A stretch of DNA of 64,000 nt from an uncultured Anaerolineae bacterium (GTDB lineage: Bacteria; Chloroflexota; Anaerolineae; Anaerolineales; Villigracilaceae). The translations under genes and the position numbers were made by a program. Positions 12,661-63,628 of this stretch are shown one piece after another; the stretch's first letter is position 1, and the number at the start of each line of letters is the position of its first letter. Under the pieces are notes generated by a model. That model saw only the letters and a list, made by a program, of their open reading frames with translations. It had not been told where the DNA came from and ran no database searches. The DNA lies in NCBI GenBank assembly GCA_903822545.1, contig CAIJPN010000183.1:1-64000 (forward strand). Reading direction: 5' to 3'.

Positions 12661-12833
12661 CCCTCATCCCCGGCCCTTCCCTCCTCGGGGGAAGGGAGCG
12701 TTCTCCCCTCTCCCCCTGGGAGAGGGGTTGGGGGTGAGGGCGTTTTTCCCCTCTCCCCCCGGGAGAGGGGTTGGGGGTGAGGGCGTCTTTCCCCTCTCCC
12801 CCCGGGAGAGGGGTTGGGGGTGAGGGCGTTTTT
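12661..12833. repeat. REP-like palindromes with three 43-bp tandem units
   Basis: Three tandem 43-bp units (12705-12747, 12748-12790, 12791-12833) each contain CCCCTCTCC paired with GGGAGAGGGG, followed by TTGGGGGTGAGGGCGT and a T-rich end. A related palindrome (12661-12700, with CCCTCATCCCCGGCCCTTCC) precedes them. The last unit overlaps the RNase J stop codon by 2 bp. The same family appears at 25940-26025 and, as a coding fragment, near 38455. The array may also act as terminator or mRNA-stabilising structure for RNase J. Confidence 0.85.
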
Positions 12834-14469
12834 ACACCTTCGTCATCGTCACAAACACCATTGGCTTGCGGCGGGTTTCATTGAACAAGAAAGTTTTCAC
12901 CACGCTGACAATATCCTTCTCCAGTGTCAGCCCGCCGCCATGGATGACATCCACCACGCGCTGTTTAACCGCCGGGAGCAGCTTTTCGGCATCTTCTGCC
13001 GAGACAAAGCCGCGGGTGATGATTTCCGGGTCGTCCAGCAGGCGGTTGGAGTATTTGTCGATGCTCAAGTTAACCAGGAAAATGCCCGAGCGGGCCAGCT
13101 GCTCACGTTCCTTCATCACATCCGGGTCGACATCCCCAATGCTTTCGCCCTCGACAAAGACATATTCACCCGGAATCCGCTCGCCGATGGTGAGTCTGCC
13201 ATCTTCCAGTTCCACCACCTGGCCGTTTTCCACCACGATGATGTTCTCTTTGGGCAGGCCCATCTGATGGGCCATTTGGGCGTGGCGCAAAAGCTGGCGC
13301 AGTTCACCGTGCATGGGCATGAAATGTTTAGGACGCACCAGGTTGAGCATCAGTTTTTGCTCTTCCTGGCTGGCATGCCCGGAGACATGCACCGGCGCAA
13401 TACCATCGTGGATGACATTTGCGCCGCGCCGAAACAGGCGATTGATGGTCTTACTGACAGATTCTTCGTTACCGGGGATGGGATGCGACGACAGGATGAT
13501 GGTGTCACCGGCCTGGATGTCAAACTGGCGGTTGCTTCCGGTGGAAAGCCTGCCAATAATGGAGGACGGTTCGCCCTGTGAGCCGGTACACATGAGAACC
13601 ACCTGGGAGGCAGGCAGGTTGAGCGCCGCATCCACCGGGACGAGGGTTTCGTCGGGCACGATCAGGTAGCCAAGTTTGCGTGCCATTTTGGCATTATCCA
13701 CCATGCTGGTGCCGACAAAGGCCAGCTTGCGGCGATGTTTGACGGCCATATCGGCCACCTGCTGCATGCGCGAGATGAGTGACGCAAAGGATGCTACGAT
13801 GACGCGGCCTTCTGCTTCTTTGAAGACGGCATCCAGCGCCGGGCCGATAACTTTTTCGGAGGGAGTCCAGCCCTGGCGTTCGGCATTGGTTGAGTCTGAG
13901 AGCAGCAGATCGACACCGCGCGAGGAGAGTTCGGCCAGTTTGGCGTAATCGGTAGGCCAGTTATCAACCGGGGTATGGTCGAATTTGAAATCGCCAGTGT
14001 GGACGACCAGCCCGGCCCCTGTGGTAATCCCCAACCCGACCGCGTCGGGGATGGAGTGGCAGACGTGGAAAAATTCCACCTTGAATGGGCCAATTTGAAC
14101 GCTTTCACCGGCTTTGACCGGGCGTAAATCGGCTTTGCTGGCCATGCCATGGCGCGCCAGTTTGACTTCGATCAAGCCGGTGGTCAGGCGTGTGGCAAAA
14201 ATAGGTGCAGGAACCTGTGCAAGCAAATGCTGGATGGCTCCAATGTGATCTTCATGCCCGTGTGTGATGATGATGCCAACAACTTTGTGGCTTTTGTCAT
14301 AGAGATACTCAAAATCGGGGATGATGTAATCGACACCGATCATGTCGTTTTCGGGGAACATTAAACCAGCATCGACGACCAGGATTTGGTCGTCATATTC
14401 GTAGGCCATCATATTCTTGCCTACCTCGCCCAGCCCCCCCAGGGGGATGATTTTTAATTTATTGGTCAT
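12832..14469 (-). CDS. rnj: Ribonuclease J
   Basis: A 545-residue metallo-beta-lactamase/beta-CASP nuclease acting in mRNA decay and rRNA maturation with endonuclease and 5'-to-3' exonuclease activity. The zinc motif THGHEDHIGA is at about 73-82; further ligands are in FHVCHSIPDAVG and HTGDFKFDH. The beta-CASP part includes GSQGEPSS and SSHPIPGNE, and the late His motif is in HVSGHASQEE, followed by the C-terminal domain. Length and order match bacterial RNase J. It has a near-consensus promoter at 14655-14683 and a terminator-like hairpin inside its roughly 180-nt leader, pointing to premature termination as control. Confidence 0.95.
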   Translation of the reverse strand: MTNKLKIIPLGGLGEVGKNMMAYEYDDQILVVDAGLMFPENDMIGVDYIIPDFEYLYDKSHKVVGIIITHGHEDHIGAIQHLLAQVPAPIFATRLTTGLIEVKLARHGMASKADLRPVKAGESVQIGPFKVEFFHVCHSIPDAVGLGITTGAGLVVHTGDFKFDHTPVDNWPTDYAKLAELSSRGVDLLLSDSTNAERQGWTPSEKVIGPALDAVFKEAEGRVIVASFASLISRMQQVADMAVKHRRKLAFVGTSMVDNAKMARKLGYLIVPDETLVPVDAALNLPASQVVLMCTGSQGEPSSIIGRLSTGSNRQFDIQAGDTIILSSHPIPGNEESVSKTINRLFRRGANVIHDGIAPVHVSGHASQEEQKLMLNLVRPKHFMPMHGELRQLLRHAQMAHQMGLPKENIIVVENGQVVELEDGRLTIGERIPGEYVFVEGESIGDVDPDVMKEREQLARSGIFLVNLSIDKYSNRLLDDPEIITRGFVSAEDAEKLLPAVKQRVVDVIHGGGLTLEKDIVSVVKTFLFNETRRKPMVFVTMTKV

Positions 14470-14548
14470 GTAAAATTTCCTTGTTTCTTTATGGTAAATG
14501 TTTGAGATACAAAATTATCCGCTTTTGCGGTTAAAGTCAGGTGGTAAA

Positions 14549-14574
14549 ACACAAAAACGCCCCGCTAACGGGGC
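14549..14574 (-). terminator. Intrinsic terminator inside the RNase J leader (putative attenuator)
   Basis: On the minus strand GCCCCG, loop TTAG, CGGGGC is followed by GTTTTTGTGTTTT. No minus-strand gene lies upstream (the next gene is divergent at 14758), so the terminator sits between the rnj promoter and the rnj start. A smaller CTGCC/GGCAG hairpin (14618-14631) precedes it. This implies an attenuated RNA of about 95 nt or regulated readthrough. Confidence 0.65.
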
Positions 14575-14654
14575 CGGCGACCAAAATCGATTGTGCTTCT
14601 GATACACCAATACAAAACTGCCTAATGGCAGATAAGTTCGTTAGTAATAAAAGC

Positions 14655-14683
14655 AGTATAGCAAGGGAGATGTGATTTGTCAA
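14655..14683 (-). promoter_or_regulatory. Near-consensus sigma-70 promoter for RNase J
   Basis: On the minus strand, TTGACA (14683-14678), a 17-bp spacer and TATACT (14660-14655). This is one of the best promoter matches in the window. Predicted transcription start is near 14648. Confidence 0.85.
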
Positions 14684-14757
14684 ATTGGGCTGGGCGGTTT
14701 TGCAGCTTCATTATGAAATCAAAATAATTCGCTGTAAAATTAACTCGGAGGTTTTTT

Positions 14758-15399
14758 ATGGAAAAACTCGACCTGCGCAAACAACTCTCTCATCTCTACC
14801 AACCATCCACCAAACAAGTTTCGCTGGTAGATGTGCCCGCCATGCAATTTATCATGGCAGATGGCGCCATCGAGCCGGGACAGTCTCCGGGCAGTTCGCC
14901 ATCCTTCCAGGAAGCCACCCAGGCGCTCTACAGCCTGGCCTACACTCTCAAATTTATGGTTAAACAGCGCAAAACTGAGCCCATCGACTTTGGCGTGATG
15001 GCCTTGGAAGGCCTGTGGTGGATCGAAAGTGGTGAGTTCAACATTCGCAACCCCGGCAACTGGCTGTGGACGCTGATGATCATGCAGCCCGATTTTATCA
15101 GCGAGGGCAACTTCCAGGATGCGCTGGCGCAAATCCGCAAGAAAAAGCCCCAGCCGGGGCTGGAAAAGCTGCGGTTCGGAACCTTCCACGAGGGGCTGTC
15201 GGCCCAGTTGATGCACATCGGCCCCTATGCCACCGAACCTGCCAGCGTAGATCGCCTGCACACCTTCATGGCTGAAAACGGCCTGCGCGACCGCATCGGC
15301 CTGGGGGGCAAACATCACGAAATCTACCTGGGCGACCCACGCCGCGGCGACCCGGAAAAGCTCAAAACCGTGCTGCGCCACCCGGTTGAGCGCATCTGA
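14758..15399 (+). CDS. GyrI-like small-molecule-binding domain protein
   Basis: A 213-residue protein resembling the stand-alone GyrI-like/SRPBCC-type ligand-binding family. It has the N-terminal VSLVDVPAMQFIMADGAIEPG segment, the FQEATQALYSLAYTLKFMVK helix, a tryptophan-rich EGLWWIESG, and a late LMHIGPYATEPASVDRLHTF that matches the conserved H-x-G-x-Y helix of these proteins. Family members bind hydrophobic compounds, but the ligand here is unknown. There is no DNA-binding domain. ATG follows GGAGG at 6-bp spacing. It is divergent from RNase J and may share the 288-bp control region. Confidence 0.75.
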   Translation: MEKLDLRKQLSHLYQPSTKQVSLVDVPAMQFIMADGAIEPGQSPGSSPSFQEATQALYSLAYTLKFMVKQRKTEPIDFGVMALEGLWWIESGEFNIRNPGNWLWTLMIMQPDFISEGNFQDALAQIRKKKPQPGLEKLRFGTFHEGLSAQLMHIGPYATEPASVDRLHTFMAENGLRDRIGLGGKHHEIYLGDPRRGDPEKLKTVLRHPVERI

Positions 15400-63086: not shown

Positions 63087-63187
63087 TTGCCTGTTACCTG
63101 TCGCGTGCTCCGCAACCTTTTTGAACAGGGTCTCGTATATCTTTGCAGAACATTCCGCTGAAAAGCGTACAAGAAAACGAGGCTAAA

Positions 63188-63628
63188 ATGACAACTGAAA
63201 CTACTGCAACAACCCCCACTCCGCTGCCGCTCTCCCAATCTGAAGAGCGCACCTGGGCCATGCTGGCACACTTGAGCGTGCTGGTAAACCTGTTCACGGG
63301 CGTACTGGGGCCGGTGGTGGCGCTGGTAATTTACCTGATGTTTGCGTCACGTTCACGTTATGTGGCTTATCACGCCATGCAATCCTTCATCTTCCAGCTT
63401 GTGATGTGGTATGGGATTGGTGCGATGTGGGCGGTGGTGGGGATGTTGAGCGCGGTGGTGGTCGGCGTGGTGCTGATCCCGTTCGCGTGTGCCGTCACAC
63501 CTTTCCTGCTGGCGGGCATGGCAATTGCGCCCATTTACGGCGTGTGGGGAGCCATCCAGACCAGCCAGGGCCAGGATTTCAAGTACTGGCTGGTGGGTGA
63601 TTGGATGCGCCAGACGCTGGTAGGATAA
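63188..63628 (+). CDS. DUF4870-like membrane protein
   Basis: A 146-residue relative of the preceding gene: SEERTWAMLAHLSVLVNLFTGVLGP, then SRYVAYHAMQSFIFQLVMWYG and a third hydrophobic region. The start at 63188 has GAGG before it. Unknown function. Confidence 0.7.
   Translation: MTTETTATTPTPLPLSQSEERTWAMLAHLSVLVNLFTGVLGPVVALVIYLMFASRSRYVAYHAMQSFIFQLVMWYGIGAMWAVVGMLSAVVVGVVLIPFACAVTPFLLAGMAIAPIYGVWGAIQTSQGQDFKYWLVGDWMRQTLVG

Follow-up and report, generated by a model that had tools for sequence, protein, structure and literature searches.

RNase J is a central 5'-to-3' decay enzyme in many bacteria, and to our knowledge control of its amount is known in few of them. RNase E autoregulates through stem-loops in the 5' untranslated region (UTR) of its own message, rne, by direct binding and at the level of mRNA stability. 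This autoregulation is mentioned in the available text of PMC7283877 and PMC5874925. In Bacillus subtilis, RNase Y sets the level of its own mRNA, partly via the 5' UTR, as described in the available sections of PMC10303841. For rnj itself, negative feedback via the 5' UTR is reported for Helicobacter pylori in the available text of PMC5874925, where an rnj lacZ fusion rose 1.3- to 1.4-fold upon RNase J depletion. A Rho-independent terminator in the 5' UTR of the Rhodobacter sphaeroides dcw cluster yields the small RNA UpsM, according to the available part of PMC5089854. Among the matches listed from the open-licence literature, no title or abstract opening concerns an rnj leader with a terminator or attenuator.

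By sequence comparison, the leader analyzed here is a conserved, uncatalogued element with a predicted intrinsic terminator, tied to rnj in one family of Anaerolineales, in the phylum Chloroflexota. It shares its gene with the H. pylori system, where feedback is reported and here only proposed; the available text on H. pylori mentions neither a terminator nor attenuation, and the likeness is one of description. The preliminary description of this locus, which knew feedback through a leader from RNase E, held that an analogous loop for rnj would be new, and the H. pylori 5' UTR is a partial precedent for it (PMC5874925, as far as its available text goes). Like rne, the rnj leader belongs to a decay enzyme and carries stem-loops, which in rne serve feedback; unlike rne, where the effect is on mRNA stability, its core holds an intrinsic terminator. 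RNase Y is likewise a decay enzyme that acts on its own mRNA level with a part played by the 5' UTR, but there the available account is of cleavage in the 5' UTR and open reading frame (ORF) with entry of RNase J1, not of premature termination (PMC10303841). UpsM resembles the rnj leader in its long 5' UTR, its Rho-independent terminator and its limitation to one family, and differs in the genes concerned and, in the available part of PMC5089854, in being thought to act in trans and in being cut by RNase E under stress.

The features of the locus, in the window (the whole 64,000-nucleotide stretch of DNA analyzed), are as follows.

14758-15399, plus strand: GyrI-like gene, the upstream neighbour, divergent from rnj
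14683-14655, minus strand: sigma-70-type promoter TTGACA-N17-TATACT, with the -35 TTGACA at 14683-14678 and the -10 TATACT at 14660-14655
About A14648, minus strand: probable transcription start, placed by spacing, 7 nt past the -10
14632-14640, minus strand: unpaired 5' flank of P1, CGAACUUAU in the window, family consensus UGACUUUUn (alignment A1)
14631-14618, minus strand: hairpin P1, CUGCC-AUUA-GGCAG, then UUUU (-6.8 kcal/mol)
14609-14575, minus strand: middle hairpin, predicted in the minimum free energy fold of the window genome
14574-14552, minus strand: predicted intrinsic terminator P2, GCCCCG-UUAG-CGGGGC, then G UUUUU G, with the stem-loop at 14574-14559 (-11.2 kcal/mol)
14538-14519, minus strand: flank GACUUUAA and hairpin P3, CCGC-AAAA-GCGG, with the hairpin at 14530-14519, in the read-through transcript only (alignment A2)
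14482-14478, minus strand: Shine-Dalgarno-like AAGGA, read from the sequence
14469-12832, minus strand: RNase J gene (rnj), 545 aa, with its ATG at 14469

The preliminary description had the promoter and two hairpins, the second with a T-tract, ahead of RNase J, and both its coordinates and its content were right; a third hairpin, P3, which it lacked, lies between the terminator and the RNase J start. The promoter matches the consensus at 11 of 12 positions, has a TG before the -10 within the 17-nt spacer (extended -10 type), and ranks first among eight promoter-like sites between 12000 and 17500, where shuffled sequences give 3.0. P2 has the GC-rich stem-loop with an immediate U-tract that defines an intrinsic (Rho-independent) terminator, and termination is predicted there; its stem-loop directly precedes GTTTTTGTGTTTT. 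The terminator scan by itself is weak evidence, with 10 terminators found against 6.2 expected. An RNA running from the start near 14648 to the end of the T-tract near 14552 would be about 97 nt long, near the 95 nt first proposed. This 97-nt stretch folds at -31.6 kcal/mol (z -2.77), a value equaled by none of 200 shuffles. The entire 179-nt leader stands out less from chance (z -1.69; 14 of 200 shuffles equal it), and folding of the 86 nt past the terminator is not above that of shuffles (z -0.57). Promoter, terminator and gene follow one another on one strand with no sigma-70-like signal above chance between terminator and gene, the layout of an attenuator.

The product of the downstream gene is RNase J by its matches to TIGR00649 (NCBIfam) and to the Pfam domains RNase_J_b_CASP and RNase_J_C, and it is the single RNase J match in the 5.5-Mb genome of the window (E<=1e-3). 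Because the upstream neighbour is divergent, P2 is not the end of another gene, and the preliminary claim that no other gene lies upstream on the leader's strand held. Downstream of rnj, at 12688-12832, a GC-rich 43-nt unit that has inverted symmetry is repeated in tandem, in 3.4 copies; by eye, repeats resembling it lie between the terminator and P3 in two other leaders (L028 and L073).

RNase J upstream regions were collected from 110 loci, 92 of them distinct and long enough. RNAalifold gave no result on the initial raw alignment, and a curated alignment (A1) was used instead, made of the 45 leaders in which both P1 and P2 gave an anchor; of 46 listed leaders only L057 was left out, because of an insertion. 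The 5' terminator arm of two leaders (L017 and L018) is misplaced in A1, which counts against P2. On a promoter scale with a maximum of 13, 34 of the 45 leaders score 12, nine score 11, one scores 10 and one scores 9. P1 is paired in 98.2% of cells with two-sided changes in all five pairs, and P2 in 80.4% with two-sided changes in three of five. The region of the middle hairpin (14575-14609) has no consensus pairs in the family alignment fold. The covariation score of A1 is 0.310 against 0.159 for shuffled alignments, none of 500 reaching it; of the five covariation measures used, the one for further pair types did not exceed shuffles (77 of 500). Since kinship inflates such counts, changes were also mapped on the RNase J protein tree. 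P1 underwent 21 changes there, comprising 12 double compensatory, 5 single pair-keeping and 4 pair-breaking ones, and control stems slid by -2, -1, +1 or +2 columns showed no double compensatory change at all. P2 shows 10 double changes over five pairs; for the four pairs usable in slid controls there are 6, against 1, 3, 0 and 2. However, 29 of the 53 changes in P2 break pairs, 16 of them in the outermost pair, and the tree support for P2 is therefore weaker than for P1. One genome (G016) has no P1.

A covariance model of P1 plus terminator, built from A1 and run on 100 genomes of the window's family (E<=0.01), matches 80 of them with 82 hits, 79 of which sit 34-275 nt (median 83) upstream of rnj. 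The model was trained on rnj leaders, so hits at those loci come as expected; what carries information is that it also scores additional rnj leaders and finds almost nothing besides. The own genome has one strong hit at 41.5 bits, followed by hits at 27.2, 22.9 and 21.3 bits. The 27.2-bit hit was considered as a second copy of the leader and rejected, as it reads as a terminator between convergent genes. From the other side, 8 of 88 rnj places (fragments and weak metallo-beta-lactamase hits having been dropped) lack a model hit. Four of these (G004, G041, G051 and G016) still have a near-consensus promoter and a terminator, one (G018) has a terminator and a less clear promoter, and one (G056) is cut by a contig end; in the remaining two, G021 and G026, no such leader was found by eye, G026 having a P3-like hairpin.

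A search with the P1 pattern alone gave 40 matches in the 100 genomes, at most one per genome, against 7 for a reversed-pattern control, and 39 of the 40 lie inside model hits (the other is G016:C52). P1 is therefore no widespread site serving many genes. In the window's own genome the P1 flank deviates from the pattern, and no match was obtained there. By crude ORF calls at 85 loci, the genes upstream of the leader form 46 protein clusters, and 48 of these genes are codirectional with rnj, the other 37 divergent. The leader is thus essentially unique in the genome and tied to rnj. This comparison lends good support to the first reading of the locus, attenuation or a small RNA. Absence of a conserved hairpin would have spoken against that reading, and among relatives the hairpins show both conservation and covariation and have remained with rnj as the upstream neighbours changed.

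The terminated RNA of about 97 nt could also be a small RNA acting in trans, as the available text of PMC5089854 proposes for UpsM from the Rhodobacter dcw leader, with its promoter shared only secondarily with rnj. The near-consensus promoter and terminator fit this, and the unpaired UGACUUU, being conserved, might serve as a seed. Yet among the 82 hits there is only one, in G057, whose leader stands apart from the rnj of its contig, an insertion of about 2 kb intervening; one of the two others (G078) is a leader at a contig end with rnj not in view, and G094:C20 (27.6 bits) was rejected as a leader, being unrelated and looking like an end-of-gene terminator. The sequence between P1 and P2 in A1 is, moreover, poorly conserved, and we regard a function in trans as quite unlikely. 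The G057 insertion (L145, G057:C1:2648900-2651700) carries an ORF read as a transposase, with the leader and P3 intact, apart from rnj.

The promoter-then-terminator arrangement is also enriched upstream of rnj. In its strict form the pattern occurs in 72 of 106 rnj upstream regions (409 nt, duplicates included) against 1 of 212 shuffles, in 61 of 90 distinct full-length ones, and in 10 of 24 below 66% protein identity. As controls we used 209 ORFs (188 distinct) from the same loci and the window. Five were flagged, including two that are rnj itself and two entries for the one displaced leader of G057; after removal of five RNase J-like ORFs and the two G057 entries, 1 of 202 remains. The sole non-rnj control flagged with a promoter and then a terminator upstream is the window ORF at 63142-63628 on the plus strand.

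Beyond the family the pattern thins out. Elsewhere in the class it occurs at 5 of 40 places from 38 families (6 with a looser promoter); the other classes of the phylum were sampled at 36 places from 32 families, and none has it. In a class-wide sample the covariance model matches 7 of 150 genomes, six of the window's family (own genome included) and one marginal (E 0.009). Leaders at loci named Longilinea and Leptolinea look different, and as some of them have a terminator, the arrangement may be older than the version found in the window's family.

Whether rnj could be transcribed from a start of its own bears on a further alternative, in which P2 would be the end of a separate small RNA gene, with rnj under another promoter of a type outside the scan, which detects sigma-70-like signals only. 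Several relatives tolerate roughly 30-130 extra nt between P2 and P3 (a by-eye estimate), as two separate units would allow. The best sigma-70-like score after P2, however, averages 7.98 over the 45 leaders against 8.00 in shuffled sequence, with 3 of 45 reaching 10, and the link to rnj persists while upstream neighbours change. We hold two units to be very unlikely; the lack of a sigma-70-like signal above chance after P2 and the steady linkage to rnj favour control in cis over an unrelated small RNA gene. A second promoter at P3 was considered as well and is not supported by the same scan.

Within the family the stem of P3 hardly varies (alignment A2, 44 regions), so there is little covariation support for it, and P3 was not found in 11 of the 45 aligned leaders. 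A P3 pattern with the loop fixed at 4 nt matched 1 of 100 genomes; a wider one matched 61 of 100 with many matches away from rnj, which does not support rnj specificity. What P3 shares with P1 is its flank. A motif chosen after inspecting the flanks, GA(A/C)?YYT, precedes 22 of 34 P1 stems, 18 of 34 P3 stems and 2 of 34 terminators; shuffled P3 flanks would be expected to contain it 1.6 times. In a motif-free comparison, P1 and P3 flanks agree at 5.9 of 12 positions, against 4.9 when shuffled and 4.1 against terminator flanks. In other Anaerolineales a similar flank stands before a different stem, for example UGACC(U/A)UAAA ahead of CACAGCC-UG-GGCUGUG-like hairpins in L105-L107. In three leaders (L016, L028 and L080) P3 is inverted (AUCCGCC..GGCGGUU) with the GACUUU-like flank still 5' of it. 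An element that recurs upstream and downstream of the terminator would fit a factor dedicated to the rnj message, and RNase J as that factor is an economical guess.

We looked for the switch mechanisms that such leaders could contain. Pairing of the 5' strand with the terminator loop has a mean shuffle rank of 0.35-0.38 (0.42 over 33 distinct loops), and pairing of the linker with that loop 0.52; these ranks give no general support for an antiterminator across the 45 leaders. Thirteen of the 45 reach a rank of at most 0.1 for the 5' strand and loop, mostly in one sub-clade, and the window has 0.08 (CUAAC with GUUAG); the candidate antiterminator pairing of the sub-clade, GUUGACUU with AAGUCAGC, is invariant within it. 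A helix between the linker and post-terminator sequence has a mean rank of 0.60 in 33 leaders kept as having P3. Six leaders without a CCGC-type P3 (L021, L026, L047, L048, L050 and L056) rank at 0.00-0.17 for it and could form a long-range helix across the terminator. Pairing of the P3 flank with the Shine-Dalgarno sequence has a mean rank of 0.41 over 53 and ranks at 0.05 in the window leader; it is not supported as a general feature. ATG ORFs of at least 6 codons occur in 10 of 45 leaders against 18.2 in shuffled ones, and frames with a Shine-Dalgarno sequence, whatever their start codon, in 5 of 45 against 15.7. A single TTG frame, of 16 codons, is present in the window leader. No conserved short ORF before the terminator was found, and a ribosome-mediated (leader-peptide) attenuator is not supported. 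Rfam release 15 had no match at gathering score in window positions 14400-14800, the single one scoring 22.2 bits against 50 and lying on the plus strand, and none at 20 rnj leader loci. With neither a general antiterminator nor a leader peptide, any switch is probably protein-dependent.

The same results would suit an arrangement that senses nothing, in which a strong promoter and a leaky terminator hold rnj output constantly low and P1 and P3 are passive, protecting the 5' end or stabilizing the mRNA. Neither a general antiterminator nor a conserved leader peptide appears in the 45 leaders, and P2 loops vary freely among those of A1, as fixed tuning would permit. On the other hand, 12 compensatory changes have preserved the pairing of P1, and the motif of its flank is found again ahead of P3, beyond what tuning would seem to need. 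We take this explanation to be a real contender, if an unlikely one.

Our preferred explanation, which we think somewhat more probable than the contrary, is that the leader is an uncatalogued cis-acting transcription attenuator of rnj, with rnj expressed by read-through. The strong promoter would start an RNA about 180 nt ahead of rnj, most polymerases would be expected to stop at P2 and release the RNA of about 97 nt, and rnj mRNA would come from the few that read through. The likely sites for a factor setting read-through or the fate of the mRNA would then be P1, together with its UGACUUU flank, and the look-alike P3. Judged from sequence and its conservation, P2 presumably terminates in vivo, rnj would depend on read-through, and that read-through would be regulated. 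The most economical candidate for the factor is RNase J or the decay machinery, which would give negative feedback, with RNase J as a speculative sensor. Such feedback on its own leader is plausible by analogy with H. pylori, and the torpedo role of B. subtilis RNase J1 is one way in which RNase J could raise termination. Taken furthest, this would make the leader a new Anaerolineales class of cis-regulatory RNA, in which RNase J or a decay complex recognizes the repeated UGACUUU and hairpin of P1 and P3 and controls its own premature termination, a proposal that we put forward tentatively and consider rather improbable as a whole.

The leader adds an RNA element without a threshold match in Rfam release 15 and, at about 180 nt, offers a small and direct system in which to ask if termination of its own transcription can be controlled by an exoribonuclease. 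The promoter and predicted terminator kept across the family suggest that the level of RNase J is set by letting only some polymerases through. If RNase J does recognize P1 and P3, an RNA-decay enzyme would here be governed by transcription attenuation.
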